Part shown: positions 10,749-16,908 of the stretch, piece after piece
How positions within the stretch are numbered: the first letter of the stretch is position 1
How the letters are laid out: every line of letters begins with the position of its first letter
Source of the DNA: Alteromonadaceae bacterium
GTDB taxonomy: Bacteria; Pseudomonadota; Gammaproteobacteria; Pseudomonadales; Cellvibrionaceae
DNA length: 34,135 bases
Reading direction: 5' to 3'
NCBI GenBank assembly: GCA_002746115.1
Contig: NVXL01000217.1
Coordinates: forward strand, 1-34,135
The notes under the pieces: generated by a model
Database searches by the model: none
Seen by the model: only the letters and a program-made list of their open reading frames with translations
Told to the model about the DNA's origin: nothing
Made by a program: the position numbers and the translations under genes

Positions 10749-11498
10749 ATGCAGAAAAGTCGCCTTTATATGTCATCGTTAATGTTTTACACAAAACCTG
10801 TTCCTCTCGATAAGTCCAAACATCAAAACCTTAAGCTTAAAAGTAAAAGAAATTTCTCTTTTGCCGGCCAGACCAACTCTGTACCGCTTGGCGCTACCGA
10901 ATTTTTTAACTGCAGTCGCCACCATCCGGTGATGTTTGTTAAAAACAAAGCTGAAGAATATATCCCGATTGCTTTGCTTTCTCTTGCGGCCAAAGGTCAT
11001 GAGCTGGGCGACGATTGGCAAGACGTTTACGTACCGTTCTATGTACGTCGTTATCCTTTCTTTGTTGAGTCATCTAAGCAAGCTGTTGTTATTGATGAGG
11101 AATGCACAGATTTACAAGAAGAAGAGGGCGAGCCGCTATTTACTGAAGCTGGCGAACCGACTGAAATACTGACTAAGGTGATTGAATTCTTAGATATGAC
11201 GGATCGTAGCTATCGTCAAACTGAAGAATATTGCAAAGCATTAAAAGAGAAAGACTTACTTGTTCCGTTTAAAGGAACCGTTAAATTCTCCAATACTGAA
11301 ATGAAGCTTGATCACATGTATGTTGTGGACGAGGTGAAAATGCATAAATCTCTAACGGATGAGGAGATTGTTCAGTGGTACAAAAAAGGCTGGATCACTT
11401 GGACCATTGCTCATCTGCATTCTGTCAGCTCCATTGATCAAGTTATTAAGCGCTTAAAAGCTGCTGCAGCAGCGAAAGAGTCGGCTAAAAAAGCCTAA
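10749..11498 (+). CDS. SapC family protein
   Basis: 249 residues matching the SapC family, named for a gene near a Campylobacter S-layer gene; its biochemical function is unknown. Family blocks seen: VPLDKSKHQNLKL near the start, ATEFFNCSRHHPVMFV (about 49-64), IPIALLSLAAKGHELGDDWQ (72-91), YVPFYVRRYPFFVESS (94-109), EGEPLFTEAGEPTEIL (126-141) and AHLHSVSSIDQVIKRL near the end. No signal peptide is seen. The C-terminus is alanine/lysine-rich. Three in-frame ATGs (10749, 10770, 10782) lack a good ribosome site; family members usually begin close to the third. It is monocistronic, flanked by a hairpin on either side. Confidence 0.82.
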   Translation: MQKSRLYMSSLMFYTKPVPLDKSKHQNLKLKSKRNFSFAGQTNSVPLGATEFFNCSRHHPVMFVKNKAEEYIPIALLSLAAKGHELGDDWQDVYVPFYVRRYPFFVESSKQAVVIDEECTDLQEEEGEPLFTEAGEPTEILTKVIEFLDMTDRSYRQTEEYCKALKEKDLLVPFKGTVKFSNTEMKLDHMYVVDEVKMHKSLTDEEIVQWYKKGWITWTIAHLHSVSSIDQVIKRLKAAAAAKESAKKA

Positions 11499-11553: not shown

Positions 11554-11654
11554 CGATTACATACTTTTACACTTTTTAGTGAAATCCCCGTAGATTACCG
11601 CGTCACCTGTCGTTAACCTAGCTGCTTTAATGTTGCTTGCTGGAGCCTATACTG

Positions 11655-12731
11655 ATGGTGGAATTTGTACCTTTTGATAGGCTTGCACGCACTTTTCTGT
11701 TCGTTTTTTTTATCTTTTTTACGTCTGGCGTTAATGCCGAAGATACACAAAAAGATGCACAAAAAAACGCCAAACAAGATACATCCTGTGACAGTAGTAC
11801 CGCTTGCGCCCCCGTGGGTCAGTGGGAGTTTTCCGTAGGTATCGGGCTTGGAGGTCGCACCAATCCAGTCATTGACGGGGATACCACACCGATTATCGTT
11901 TTACCCTCGCTGAGCTACTACGGTGAGCGTTTCTTTTTTGACACCACAACACTTGGCTTTACCCTAGTCGATCAGCCTAAGCATTTATTGAATGTTATCG
12001 CTACTATTAGCCTTGATCAGAGCTTTTTTAATGATGGCGGCATTGGTGGATTCTTTATCGACCCTGTTGGTGGGGGCGGAGAAAATATCGACATTAACGC
12101 TTGGGCGGAGAGCCCCTCTCGAGCACCTGAGCCCACAGTGCCGCCTGATTTTCCGGTTGGAGCGACGCCTCCGCCATCGGCCACACCAGCCCCTGAACCG
12201 ACGCCTCCGCCAGTAGCCACGCCAACACCTCCCCCTGTGGGCAATGGGGGTGGTGATGTGGCTGACCCAGCGGAAATCAACTTGGCTGATCTACATAAAC
12301 GACGTATGGCGGGCTTTTTGGGGGTCGAATACAGTTATATTTGGTCGAGCAGTTCGTTAAATCTTCAAGCGTTAAGTGATGTGAGCGGTCTTTATTCGGG
12401 CGGACAGGTTCGCGTTTCATATGAGCATTTATGGGCGATCGGGCAGCACGGGTTAAAAACCACTGCTGGTGCGGAATGGCGCAGCGCGCAAATGAACGAT
12501 TACTATTTTGGCATTCGCTTATCTGAGGCGGTTACCGCAGGCCAGTTTTATCAGCCGGATGCCGATATTTCGTCTTTTATAAAAATCAGTTGGCAGCGTC
12601 AATTAACGAAACGCTGGGGCTTGCAGGCCACCTTCCATCATCGTTGGCTGGGCTCGGAAATCGCCAATAGCCCGATTGTCGAAGACGACACAGTAAGCAC
12701 CGCGTTTATAGGAGGGATTTATCATTTTTAA
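11655..12731 (+). CDS. MipA/OmpV family outer membrane protein with Pro-rich insert
   Basis: 358 residues from the ATG at 11655, which has GGAG 9 bases upstream. The open frame also offers an earlier TTG at 11637. A signal peptide (MVEFVPFDRLARTF, long phenylalanine-rich core, ending VNA) is followed by a barrel: WEFSVGIGLGGRTNPVIDGD, IIVLPSLSYYGERFFFD and TLGFTLVDQPKHLLNV are typical MipA/OmpV N-terminal strands, and the protein ends FIGGIYHF. Residues about 152-199 are a proline/threonine/alanine insertion (TPPPSATPAPEPTPPPV) with repeated ACGCCTCCGCCA at DNA level, probably a long external or periplasmic loop. MipA was first described as a scaffold for murein enzymes; many homologues are two-component targets. 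It heads an operon with DUF3019, a response regulator and a kinase. Confidence 0.85.
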   Translation: MVEFVPFDRLARTFLFVFFIFFTSGVNAEDTQKDAQKNAKQDTSCDSSTACAPVGQWEFSVGIGLGGRTNPVIDGDTTPIIVLPSLSYYGERFFFDTTTLGFTLVDQPKHLLNVIATISLDQSFFNDGGIGGFFIDPVGGGGENIDINAWAESPSRAPEPTVPPDFPVGATPPPSATPAPEPTPPPVATPTPPPVGNGGGDVADPAEINLADLHKRRMAGFLGVEYSYIWSSSSLNLQALSDVSGLYSGGQVRVSYEHLWAIGQHGLKTTAGAEWRSAQMNDYYFGIRLSEAVTAGQFYQPDADISSFIKISWQRQLTKRWGLQATFHHRWLGSEIANSPIVEDDTVSTAFIGGIYHF

Positions 12732-12747
12732 ACCCTTACTAAGATAC

Positions 12748-13185
12748 ATGTTGCCCGCTAGGTCTTTGATTAAGACGTTTAATAGGCTTAAGGTGATTGT
12801 GTGTGCCTTGAGTATGCTCATATTGGTAGCTTCAGTTAGGGCGGAACCTCCGCGCGAATTGCCTGGGATTATCTTTAGTGTGAAACCTCGCTTATGTGTT
12901 TTGTCTGAACGTGAACGGCACTGTAGTGATAAATTAGAGCTTAAATGGCAGGCGCCAACGCGGCAATCGCTGTGTTTGCACCGAAGTGATCAAGCCAGCG
13001 CGATTAAATGCTGGACGCGGAAGTTCTCAGGCATCCATGAGGTGGAGATTTCTACGGCGGACGATATTGAGTTCCAGTTAGTTGCCGTTACCGATCAAGC
13101 TCCTCTCGTGACACAAACCTTTGAAGTGGTAAAAAGCGATGTTAAATATCGTCGCCGCCGCCGTAATGCATGGAGTTTTTTCTAA
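12748..13185 (+). CDS. DUF3019 periplasmic protein
   Basis: 145 residues with a signal peptide or anchor (IKTFNRLK, hydrophobic core, ending VRA at about 32). The mature part matches DUF3019: SVKPRLCVLSERERHC (44-59), LKWQAP, LCLHRS, KCWTRKFSG and the C-terminal RRRRRNAWSFF (135-145). Cysteines 50, 59, 76 and 88 could form two disulfides. Function is unknown; its constant company with MipA barrels and two-component genes suggests a periplasmic input or modulator for the kinase. It starts 16 bases after mipA. Its stop overlaps the response-regulator start (TAATG), and its last codons (TGGAGT) supply that gene's ribosome site. Confidence 0.8.
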   Translation: MLPARSLIKTFNRLKVIVCALSMLILVASVRAEPPRELPGIIFSVKPRLCVLSERERHCSDKLELKWQAPTRQSLCLHRSDQASAIKCWTRKFSGIHEVEISTADDIEFQLVAVTDQAPLVTQTFEVVKSDVKYRRRRRNAWSFF

Positions 13186-13877
13186 TGACCGTCATATTAG
13201 TTGCGGAAGATGATGCCCGTTTAGCGGGCTTGGTACAGTCCTATTTACAAGATAATGGTTTTACCGTGGTTATTGAGCCAACCGGGTATAACGTTGAGCG
13301 ACGAGTCACTGATTTAAACCCGGATATTGTTATTCTCGATATTATGTTGCCGGGTAAAGATGGCTTGACGATCTGCAAGGATATTCGGCCAAAATACGAT
13401 GGTGCGATATTAATGCTTACCGCGCGTGACTCCAATATGGATCAAGTGCTCGGTTTGGAATTTGGCGCTGACGACTATATGATAAAACCCGCTGAGCCTC
13501 GTGTGCTACTTGCACGAGTGCGTGCATTATTGCGCCGCTATCAGCGCGGTGCGCAAGTTAATGAGAGTCAGGATTTAACCTTTGGTACTTTGGAGATTCG
13601 TGCCACTGCACGAGAGGTTGTTTGGCAAAACGAAAGTATTAACCTGTCGACACATGAGTATGATTTACTCTTTGAGTTGGCTAGAAAATCCGGTCAGATT
13701 TTAAGTCGAGAATATTTATTTAACACCGTATATTGCCGGCCTTATGATGGTCTTGATCGCAGTGTGGATGTACGTATTTCGCACTTGCGTAAAAAGCTAG
13801 GCGACTCCTCTGACAGGCCTGAAAAAATTAAAACCATTTGGGGGAAGGGCTACTTATTCGTCCCGGACGTGTGGTAG
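13185..13877 (+). CDS. OmpR-family response regulator (RstA-like)
   Basis: 230 residues from the ATG at 13185. An in-frame ATG at 13170 would lie inside the DUF3019 gene and add five residues before the conserved start, so I reject it; GGAG at 13172-13175 is 9 bases before 13185. The receiver domain (1-120) has acidic residues D9/D10, phospho-acceptor D52 (ILDIMLPG), T79 and K101. A winged-helix DNA-binding domain occupies about 130-228 (THEYDLLFELARKSGQILSR, VDVRISHLRKKLGD, IKTIWGKGYLF). The layout with an RstB-like kinase suggests an RstA relative. Likely targets include its own operon. It starts in the stop of DUF3019 and ends 9 bases before the kinase. Confidence 0.93.
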   Translation: MTVILVAEDDARLAGLVQSYLQDNGFTVVIEPTGYNVERRVTDLNPDIVILDIMLPGKDGLTICKDIRPKYDGAILMLTARDSNMDQVLGLEFGADDYMIKPAEPRVLLARVRALLRRYQRGAQVNESQDLTFGTLEIRATAREVVWQNESINLSTHEYDLLFELARKSGQILSREYLFNTVYCRPYDGLDRSVDVRISHLRKKLGDSSDRPEKIKTIWGKGYLFVPDVW

Positions 13878-13886
13878 GCCAACACC

Positions 13887-15191
13887 ATGAATCGCGCGTT
13901 TATTTCCCTCTATGTTTTAATTGTATTATCTGTCGTGCTCCTAGGCTGGGGCGCGGATGCTCTCTGGAAAAACATTAACCCCGAAGCTGACATTCCGGTA
14001 ATGGAGCGGGCGCTAATTGACACCATTAGCGAGGAAGTAAAAGCTTTAAATTCCCCCGCAGCTCAGCTTAAAGTCGCCCACCTTAGTCAGGTTACCTCCG
14101 TTGATATCAAGCTCTATACGCTTGAAGATATTGCTCAATCCCACTTTTTTGATACTTTAAAATCAGGGAAAATACTGCCGATATACGATCAAAATGGCCG
14201 TAAATCGATTTATAAACGCATTCCAGGGCGAGACCTGATTTTACGCATCAGCGTGATGCAGCAAAGCTCTTCCCAAGCCTTGTTAAGCTTAGTTTTGTTG
14301 TGTTTGTTTTATTTGGCCATCGCTGTGGTGGTTTATTTTTGGGTTTGGCCGCTGTCGCGTGATTTAAGTAAGCTGGAGCGACAGACCTACAACCTTGGTA
14401 AGGATGGTGTACCGAAGCCGATTAAACTCTGGCAACGCTCGGCGGTATACCCCCTAGCGGCATCGTTTAATGCGATGTCGGAGCGCATTACGGAATTGAT
14501 CGCTTCGCATAAAGAAATGTCCCATGCGGTGTCCCACGAGTTACGCACACCACTCGCTAGGATGAAGTTTGCTTTGGAGATGGCGCACAGTAGCCGTGAC
14601 GATGCCCAGCGTGAGCTTCAGCTACAAGGCATTAAAATGGATGTTAACGAGATGGACGCCTTGATTAATGATCTGCTTCGTTATGCAGGATACGAGCATT
14701 ACAGTCAGGACCTTGACCTAAGGGCAGGTGACCTTGCTGCGATGGCGCAAGTTTTGTTCACGGCGAATGAGAGCATGCAGAATTCCCATGTGGTGTATCG
14801 CATTGATAACCGCTTGGATAAACAGGGAGTCTATTGTGAGTGGCATTTAATTGAGCGTTGTTTGCATAACCTTGTGCAAAATGCCTTTCGCTATGCCCGC
14901 AGTCAAATTTTGATGACGCTTTGTTACAGTGACGAAGGGCAAAATTATCAAGTGTGCGTTGAAGATGACGGCCCCGGTATTTCTGAGGACGATGCTGAGC
15001 GTGTTTTTAGTGCCTTTGTTCGTCTAAGAAACGAATCCGGCGAGAAAACAAGCGGCTTTGGCTTAGGCTTGTCGATTGTGAAGCGTATTATGAAGTGGCA
15101 CAAAGGCGATGTCAGTTTGGAGCGCTCACCCTTAGGCGGCGCTCGCTTTGTTTTGCATTGGCCAGTGCCTGCGCCGCAAAAAAATAGTTAG
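13887..15191 (+). CDS. Sensor histidine kinase (RstB-like)
   Basis: 434 residues. Two membrane helices (about 4-23 and 131-154) enclose a periplasmic sensor of about 105 residues, in the size range of RstB. A HAMP-like linker follows (160-210), then the dimerisation domain with the H-box SHELRTPLARMKFALEM (H217 phosphorylated), and the ATP-binding domain with N-box NLVQNAFRYA (N332), G1 EDDGPGIS (359-366) and G2 GFGLGLS (390-396). The C-terminus GGARFVLHWP matches the RstB type. It autophosphorylates and passes phosphate to D52 of the adjacent regulator. The periplasmic signal is unknown; DUF3019 and MipA in the same operon are candidates. Its stop overlaps the convergent pip gene by 4 bases. 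Confidence 0.93.
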   Translation: MNRAFISLYVLIVLSVVLLGWGADALWKNINPEADIPVMERALIDTISEEVKALNSPAAQLKVAHLSQVTSVDIKLYTLEDIAQSHFFDTLKSGKILPIYDQNGRKSIYKRIPGRDLILRISVMQQSSSQALLSLVLLCLFYLAIAVVVYFWVWPLSRDLSKLERQTYNLGKDGVPKPIKLWQRSAVYPLAASFNAMSERITELIASHKEMSHAVSHELRTPLARMKFALEMAHSSRDDAQRELQLQGIKMDVNEMDALINDLLRYAGYEHYSQDLDLRAGDLAAMAQVLFTANESMQNSHVVYRIDNRLDKQGVYCEWHLIERCLHNLVQNAFRYARSQILMTLCYSDEGQNYQVCVEDDGPGISEDDAERVFSAFVRLRNESGEKTSGFGLGLSIVKRIMKWHKGDVSLERSPLGGARFVLHWPVPAPQKNS

Positions 15192-16284: not shown

Positions 16285-16908
16285 CTATTCCATGGTGACC
16301 GGTAGGGATTCGCTCGAACAGTGGAAAAAGTTTGCATCGCAGGCGCGAACGGTAAGGTAAACCGTATTGGGGAATACGGGCATGAATTCGTTGATAGATG
16401 CGCCCTGGAGGCTGCCTGATGGGGTTTCGCAGCTAACGAAAAAATCTGCGGTATAGGCGCAGTACTGGTATTGGTAGGTGTCACAGGCTAAGCCTTCGCC
16501 GCAGTATTCACTTGATATGGTGACGGCGTTGCTTAGGTCGTCAGGGTTGTCGTTAATGAGCACATCGACGGTGTAGTCGGTGTAGCTTTCGATATCCCAG
16601 AAGACTTCAAATAACCCGTCATCGATAAAGGGGGAAAGTGCGAGTGGGGTATCTTCAAATTCGCTGTTGGTGCCATAGCTATCGAATATGTTGGCGCTGT
16701 ATAGCATGGTTGAGGCGTCGATAGGGTAGTTATCAACGACTTCTATTACTTCTATTACTTCTACGACCTCGACAACTATTACCGTCTCGGCAGGTGGGAT
16801 ATAGTCCTGGTGGAAGCCGCTGTCTGCTTCGTAGGAGCCACCGCATGCGGCTAGGGTGATGCTGGTAAAAATAGCGAGGCTTAAGCGTAATACCGTTGCG
16901 TGAGACAT
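16285..16908 (-). CDS. Lipoprotein with V-[VI]-E repeat
   Basis: 207 residues. The signal peptide ends in a lipobox LAAC, so C22 would be lipidated; the following GGS carries no inner-membrane retention aspartate, suggesting the outer membrane. Residues about 43-60 are a repeat of V-[VI]-E triplets, encoded by a 9-base tandem repeat (TTCTATTAC on the plus strand, 16741-16776). The rest is acidic with six cysteines (YCGEGLACDTY, YCAYTADFFVSCE, RACDANFFHCSSE), probably disulfide-linked, and may be a fibronectin-like fold (VFWDIESYTDYTVDVLIND, PNTVYLTVRAC). No known family. AAGGA lies 9 bases before the ATG. Confidence 0.7.
   Translation of the reverse strand: MSHATVLRLSLAIFTSITLAACGGSYEADSGFHQDYIPPAETVIVVEVVEVIEVIEVVDNYPIDASTMLYSANIFDSYGTNSEFEDTPLALSPFIDDGLFEVFWDIESYTDYTVDVLINDNPDDLSNAVTISSEYCGEGLACDTYQYQYCAYTADFFVSCETPSGSLQGASINEFMPVFPNTVYLTVRACDANFFHCSSESLPVTME
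16741..16776. repeat. 9-base tandem repeat inside the lipoprotein gene
   Basis: Four units: TTCTATTAC twice, then TTCTACGAC and CTCGACAAC. On the minus strand they encode consecutive V-V/I-E triplets next to the lipid anchor. The two identical copies suggest recent slippage. Confidence 0.6.

Follow-up and report, generated by a model that had tools for sequence, protein, structure and literature searches.

A MipA-DUF3019 operon with RstAB-like regulatory genes and a predicted AUU start within the end of mipA

Operon layout and gene linkage

We analysed a four-gene operon on the + strand of a 34,135-nt stretch of DNA (the window; contig NVXL01000217.1, assembly GCA_002746115.1, a member of the Cellvibrionaceae), in which all coordinates are positions. 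The operon encodes a predicted outer membrane protein of the MipA/OmpV family, a small protein of the family DUF3019 (PF11456), for which no function is known, a response regulator and a sensor histidine kinase. A first-pass annotation made from the letters alone had placed the four open reading frames at the same positions, and Pfam agrees on all four families. MipA scored 136.4 bits for PF06629 and the DUF3019 protein 94.8 bits for PF11456 (residues 43-144), above the gathering scores of 24.2 and 25 bits, respectively. The best NCBIfam models of the regulator and the kinase were RstA (NF007977, 257.4 bits) and RstB (NF007898, 249.5 bits). Both scores are below the curated cut-offs (330 and 478), and we therefore call the two proteins RstAB-like. 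Further, RstA domains were the top Protein Data Bank (PDB) matches of the regulator, and the nearest solved DNA-binding domains by sequence are also those of RstA. The source genome carries one clear DUF3019 gene, with two more matches only at E 0.07 and 0.29. The genes are as follows.

11655 to 12731, + strand: mipA, MipA/OmpV family, predicted outer membrane beta-barrel with the C-terminus GGIYHF (PF06629, E 2e-39)
12724 to 13185, + strand: DUF3019 gene from the start predicted here, 153 codons; 12748 to 13185 when read from ATG (PF11456, E 5e-27)
13185 to 13877, + strand: response regulator of the OmpR family, RstA-like (Response_reg, E 4e-21; Trans_reg_C, E 1e-21)
13887 to 15191, + strand: sensor histidine kinase, RstB-like (HisKA and HATPase_c by Pfam; two hydrophobic segments by hydropathy)
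13965 to 14270, + strand: putative periplasmic sensor part of the kinase, approximately residues 27-128, flanked by its two hydrophobic segments

PF11456 was found in 9 of 369 genomes sampled by class and 18 of 398 sampled by phylum and, within the Cellvibrionaceae, in 68 of 100 genomes and in 93 of 144 in a second sample (the source genome is counted in each). A pattern search of viral contigs gave no DUF3019 relative among its matches. We annotated 133 loci from the class, phylum and 100-genome family samples; these loci are related and some genomes contribute two or three, so their counts are not independent. A single-sequence search placed MipA upstream of DUF3019 in 116 loci and called the complete four-gene set in 108. 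With a profile built from those 116, all loci but L198 (132 of the 133) showed MipA as the gene just ahead of DUF3019 and in the same orientation. MipA was also upstream in 26 of 26 further loci, from which L208, L212 and L217 had been left out as duplicates of L234, L237 and L236, judged by the sequences of the mipA ends, and L260 as the same place as L240. The regulator begins at most 400 bases downstream of DUF3019 in 122 of the 133 loci, and the kinase is present in 130. Three loci of one genus (L089, L095 and L105) hold the MipA-DUF3019 pair and no two-component genes within 5 kb, and in L020 the regulator and kinase lie upstream of the pair. Thus, MipA-DUF3019 is a near-invariant unit and the two-component pair is its usual companion. 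The genomes of L089, L095 and L105 each also hold a full operon (L083, L084 and L096).

The supposition of the first-pass annotation that DUF3019 is usually found with two-component genes was borne out by these counts, and its label of an "envelope sensor" fits the linkage of MipA, regulator and kinase. The same linkage has another possible, though doubtful, explanation: DUF3019 could help to assemble MipA, act as its chaperone or stabilise it, with the two-component pair only regulating both genes. The near-invariance of the pair, and its persistence away from two-component genes or downstream of the kinase, would be expected of such a factor. However, the regulator and kinase still adjoin the pair in the great majority of loci, and deletion of mipBA in Pseudomonas aeruginosa impairs activation that depends on ParRS (PMC10936184; this and the other papers are cited by PubMed Central (PMC) accession).

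A predicted AUU start within mipA

In the source operon, the last codons of mipA contain what looks like a complete translation initiation site for DUF3019, with a Shine-Dalgarno (SD) sequence and a non-canonical start codon.

12711 to 12715, + strand: predicted SD sequence GGAGG of DUF3019, in the Gly-Gly codons of the mipA C-terminus
12724 to 12726, + strand: proposed AUU start codon of DUF3019, within CAT-TTT-TAA of mipA in the +1 frame

This arrangement recurs where MipA ends in Tyr-His-Phe, as it does in 53 of the 132 MipA-bearing loci, all of them in Cellvibrionaceae (hereafter, YHF loci). DUF3019 is in the +1 frame relative to mipA in all 53; frames 0, 1 and 2 occur in 20, 29 and 30 of the remaining 79 loci. 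Read in +1, CAT-TTT gives ATT, mostly 8 nt after a GGAGG or GGGGG supplied by the Gly codons, and the AUU is accompanied by an SD core of 4 or more in 51 of the 53. CAT encodes the His in 52 of the 53 loci compared with 535 of 1119 His codons in the background (48%; p 6e-16). When traced on the regulator tree of these 53 loci, the third base of this codon required a single parsimony change, whereas the neighbouring Tyr, Phe and stop codons required 15, 12 and 12. Kinship therefore does not explain the fixed T. The energies of pairing with the anti-SD point the same way. In the source operon the duplex is -10.7 kcal/mol before the AUU and -1.3 before ATG 12748. The AUU has a median of -9.9 kcal/mol, the best canonical start one of -2.45 and random mipA positions one of -2.4, and the AUU duplex is stronger than the best canonical one in 50 of 52 comparisons.

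We had set down a prediction of frame, CAT codon and SD before looking at new loci. Each of the 8 new YHF loci, which belong to a single genus, bore it out; the remaining 18 new loci fall outside the YHF set. A scan of 143 family genomes for the pattern gave 64 places, sorted as linked or unlinked by eye from their coordinates: 55 beside DUF3019 (largely the same loci as the YHF set), 7 elsewhere and 2 excluded (TGG, no stop). The places beside DUF3019 had CAT in 54 of 55 cases and GGA or GGG as the first Gly codon also in 54 of 55, compared with 2 of 7 and 0 of 7 for those elsewhere, which were counted as pattern matches whether or not they are gene ends.

A conventional start for DUF3019, at ATG 12748 in the source operon and at some other TTG, GTG or ATG elsewhere, would make the AUU a by-product of a conserved Tyr-His-Phe end. 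There is some in-frame ATG, GTG or TTG in 50 of the 53 YHF loci, and the protein read from ATG 12748 has a signal-peptide-like start. Yet the remaining 3 loci have no such codon within the range searched, protein conservation would leave the third base of the His codon as free to vary as those of Tyr and Phe are, and the SD energies and the uniform +1 frame favour the AUU; we consider a conventional start rather improbable. A TTG at -23 or -26 was considered as a general start and rejected, as some YHF loci lack it and no SD core accompanies it at these positions. Weighing against the AUU start are the 9 YHF loci in which a canonical start has an SD core of 4 or more, L123, where an ATG at +46 is stronger than the AUU, and L080, where the His codon is CAC and an ATG lies one base after the mipA stop behind a weak SD (-3.3). 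In L136 the SD for the AUU is poor and an ATG at +10 has a 7-base SD. Both L080 and L136 look compensated.

The frame and the SD-like run upstream of Phe-stop could also be read as a +1 frameshift at the mipA stop codon (CAU UUU UAA) that yields a MipA-DUF3019 fusion. The model for such an event is prfB. The details of the junction make it most improbable here: the Phe codon is TTC in 16 of the 53 loci, which would re-pair poorly after slippage, all three stop codons are used (TAA 26, TAG 15, TGA 12) and slippage does not need CAT. A fusion would also be expected to bury the C-terminal signal of MipA and to carry an internal signal peptide.

Taken together, the frame, codon and SD conservation indicate that DUF3019 of Cellvibrionaceae probably begins at an AUU in the final codons of mipA, here at 12724 and not at 12748. 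The first-pass annotation had given the junctions of the operon as 16, -1 and 9 bases, which is right for ATG starts; the 16 is probably wrong, for a start at 12724 overlaps mipA by 8 bases. Two further comparisons fit coding of the mipA-DUF3019 spacer and prove little, as they include coding or signal peptide sequence: differences by codon position in 8 pairs (93, 72 and 137), and the length from the mipA stop to the start of the Pfam domain, which underwent 37 parsimony changes, all of them frame-keeping. In 11 of the 29 other loci in frame +1, where a G-codon follows the Tyr, the same region offers an ATG, 11 bases ahead of where the mipA stop ends. Two loci (L161 and L166) have a MipA that ends in Tyr-Ser-Phe, where the +1 frame gives AUA at this same distance. 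Because L166 has no ATG, GTG or TTG start within the range searched, the AUA may be the start of its DUF3019.

In the mechanism we propose, the Gly-Gly codons of mipA would serve as the SD, the final His-Phe-stop codons (CAU UUU UAA) would hold the AUU in the +1 frame, and ribosomes finishing mipA would restart there. A ribosome that ends mipA sits over the DUF3019 site, and we therefore infer coupled, low-level synthesis: translation of DUF3019 would depend on that of mipA, and the inefficient start would keep DUF3019 well below the amount of MipA. The only two AUU starts given for Escherichia coli are infC and pcnB (PMC9410913). In Staphylococcus aureus, cvfC1 and ccpN have AUU or AUA starts with strong SD sequences that are conserved among relatives, and such starts gave about 10% of the AUG output in poor medium (PMC13009471). 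Initiation at non-canonical codons, like re-initiation, is inhibited by excess initiation factor 3 (IF3), though less where an SD is present (PMC2268962). An AUU at a fixed place behind a strong SD, conserved in a clade, is likewise what we found in 51 of 53 YHF loci and in the 8 new loci of one genus. The DUF3019 case differs from these genes in that the preceding gene carries both AUU and SD within its last codons, next to the stop, and that initiation is predicted. If correct, this is a clade-wide AUU start with both SD and start codon written in the coding end of another gene, which start-calling limited to ATG, GTG and TTG would miss. We found no mention of DUF3019 or PF11456 in the open-licence PMC papers searched and, among the papers listed there on MipA, on Cellvibrio and on AUU or other non-canonical starts, nothing on this junction.

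The DUF3019 and MipA proteins

Alignment of the 133 DUF3019 sequences revealed five invariant residues (P47, C50, C59, C76 and C88; 133 of 133 each), so that the four cysteines noted in the first-pass annotation are real and universal. The source protein has a fifth (C19) within a hydrophobic N-terminal stretch; the start of the protein is signal-peptide-like by eye, and the 133 aligned sequences have no conserved N-terminal Cys for a lipobox. An AlphaFold2 model built from 32 sequences has a core of about 90 residues that resembles immunoglobulin-like (Ig-like) domains. The VIA-align comparison of this core gave Z of 8-9, up to 9.1, to Ig-like domains among other beta-sandwiches. No family could be assigned to the core by structure comparison, and a sequence search of the PDB returned no DUF3019 match at E 1. 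DUF3019 is likely a secreted Ig-like protein and probably disulfide-bonded. The parts of the protein referred to below are:

12871 to 13134, + strand: Ig-like beta-sandwich core of DUF3019, as modelled (residues 42-129 in ATG numbering; predicted local distance difference test (pLDDT) above 90 by 10-residue block)
13150 to 13182, + strand: C-terminal tail RRRRRNAWSFF-COOH of DUF3019 (Trp in 132 of 133; basic residues and a terminal F, L or Y are common)
13172 to 13175, + strand: GGAG in the Trp-Ser codons of the tail, ribosome site for the regulator ATG 13185

The tail, described at first as invariant-looking, is so for its Trp (W142, 132 of 133 sequences). The rest varies: the last residue is F in 110, L in 13 and Y in 3, and the residue after the Trp is S in 59, R in 43 and N in 14, the usual end being W-x-F/L-F. 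In the source operon the codons for WSF do supply the ribosome site of the regulator, as the first-pass annotation had it; an alternative in-frame start of the regulator, ATG 13170, has no SD. That annotation had gone on to suggest that the overlap explains part of the conservation of the tail, and had named equal conservation in uncoupled loci as the result that would speak against it. We split the loci by the distance of DUF3019 to the regulator into 41 coupled and 92 uncoupled. All 41 coupled loci and 87 of the 92 uncoupled ones have the Trp at exactly -4, the last residue is hydrophobic in 40 of 41 and 87 of 92, and the eight residues before the last four hold on average 4.2 and 3.7 Lys/Arg, respectively. 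Tails ending in RRNPWSFF are kept with the regulator about 2 kb away (L086, L091 and L094) and at +187 and +233 (L093 and L097), L126 has RRNAWAFF with its regulator at +158, and the pairs with no two-component system nearby (L089, L095 and L105) still keep a tail, in this case STGWRLF. Thus, the GGAG overlap is real in the source operon and does not explain the tail.

It remains true that TGG-AGY places a GGAG at the proper distance before the regulator ATG, and that all 34 coupled W-S tails use AGY for the Ser. However, all 24 uncoupled ones do so as well (58 of 58 overall); the codon does not discriminate between the groups, because a change from AGY to TCN takes more than one substitution and neither group has lost AGY. 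With the tail about equally kept when uncoupled, conservation for the sake of the ribosome site is very unlikely. We propose instead that the basic-aromatic tail is selected at the protein level, and the simplest guess would be contact with MipA or the kinase. A link between tail and MipA was sought in L198, the sole locus without MipA, and dropped. The L198 protein, which matches only profile positions 2-91, keeps the basic residues and the Trp at -4 and ends in GSQ; the DUF3019 proteins of five loci with MipA (L018, L022, L161, L166 and L195) also have no hydrophobic last residue.

The AlphaFold2 model of MipA is mostly beta (pLDDT 79). Foldseek matches at E <= 0.001 were outer membrane barrels, the best being the E. 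coli porin 2x9k (E 2e-5) and OmpG, but with low TM-scores (0.19-0.36 by query length); the PDB searched by sequence gave two chance-level matches only. One region of the model stands out:

12069 to 12257, + strand: Pro-rich insertion in MipA (residues 139-201; pLDDT of about 40-68 by 10-residue block)

The length and sequence of this insertion differ among relatives and, from the strand count back from the C-terminus, it is probably an extracellular loop. A Cys pair (C45 and C51, 11787-11807) lies just before the first predicted strand and is kept in many, not all, of 31 aligned MipA proteins.

Predicted regulation and proposed circuit

The upstream region of mipA hints at control of the operon by its own regulator. 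We counted spaced tetramer pairs in 310 bases (250 before and 60 after the longest-ORF start of mipA) of 132 regions. The most frequent dyad was TACA-N6-TACA, present in 49 regions (the next dyad in 38; the top dyad in shuffled regions in 8) and, on either strand, in 65, including that of the source operon. Shuffled controls gave a mean of 1.94 and a maximum of 8 (50 shuffles), and seven other stretches within the loci gave 0-2 of 132. TACA-N6-TACA is the "classic RstA box" (PMC4117788), and its enrichment suggests that the mipA operon is autoregulated.

11558 to 11571, + strand: predicted RstA-type box TACATACTTTTACA (TACA-N6-TACA), 83 bases before the mipA ATG

Several known systems resemble the operon in part. 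In P. aeruginosa, MipA binds polymyxin, has a modelled lumen of negative charge and co-purifies with MipB, and most mipA loci screened in that study have a two-component system next door (PMC10936184). MipA-MipB/ParRS and the source operon share a MipA/OmpV family member, a second protein encoded with it and control of both genes by an OmpR-type two-component system, predicted in our case. The partners differ: MipB is a lipoprotein with a beta-lactamase fold, whereas DUF3019 is small and Ig-like, with four invariant Cys and a basic-aromatic tail. By analogy, DUF3019 may take the place of the partner in an envelope-stress or cationic-peptide circuit. In Vibrio cholerae, CarR of the RstAB-type pair CarSR is reported to control ompV directly, and ompV rises under a host defensin (PMC9178039). 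The RstAB-like BesRS of Burkholderia thailandensis responds to envelope disturbance and has a MipA/OmpV gene as a member of its regulon (PMC9426598). The excerpts of both papers mention no DUF3019. The RstA/RstB pair of Enterobacteria gave the best NCBIfam and PDB matches and has the TACA-N6-TACA box in common with the operon, although the source proteins score below its cut-offs.

Given these parallels, we propose that DUF3019 is a dedicated periplasmic partner of the predicted outer membrane barrel MipA. The RstB-like kinase would receive from the two proteins a report of outer membrane disturbance (most likely caused by cationic antimicrobial peptides), upon which the RstA-like regulator would activate mipA via the TACA-N6-TACA box. 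The proposal as a whole (an autoregulated envelope-stress circuit, co-reporting by MipA and DUF3019, and translation of DUF3019 from the AUU in mipA) is the account we lean towards, with modest confidence. Several results count against it. The inducing signal is assigned by analogy rather than from sequence evidence here, and the exact box is absent from 67 of the 132 mipA upstream regions. The fold match of DUF3019 is weak (best Foldseek E 3e-3) and the model of its tail is uncertain (pLDDT about 52-62). L198, next to the five MipA-bearing loci without a hydrophobic last residue, decides nothing on a service of the tail to MipA, and the pairs of L089, L095 and L105 do not need a sensor role. 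The kinship of the loci also tempers every count.

In a more specific and improbable version, DUF3019 would imitate a cationic peptide while tethered. Its tail, rich in Arg and of the form W-x-F-F, would rest in an acidic MipA lumen until displaced by polymyxin-like peptides, and the freed DUF3019 would activate the kinase. The AUU start would keep free DUF3019 scarcer than its MipA dock, so that the switch stays off without signal, and would let IF3 tune the switch. The broader circuit would still give DUF3019 a place beside its near-obligate genomic partner, MipA, and would extend the idea of MipA as a co-sensor from Pseudomonas to a family of environmental bacteria. As a sensor module, the operon varies a known type; of the results presented here, the AUU junction most merits pursuit.

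Outside the four genes there was no general recurrent neighbour, the largest clusters of neighbouring genes occurring in 22, 20 and 15 of the 133 loci. Two extra genes (about 390 and 241 amino acids) stand between DUF3019 and the regulator in L086 and L094 and, by distance, in L091. A gene for an efflux-type periplasmic adaptor lies upstream of mipA on the same strand in 9 loci (L086 and 8 others), and an ABC permease-like gene lies upstream of mipA in 8; together they look MacAB-like by eye. In the window, positions 16285-16908 (- strand) encode a protein of 207 residues that contains Cys, has an N-terminus like that of secreted proteins and matches no Pfam family at E 0.1. A SapC-family gene (PF07277, E 4e-59) at positions 10749-11498 immediately precedes the operon in the same orientation.

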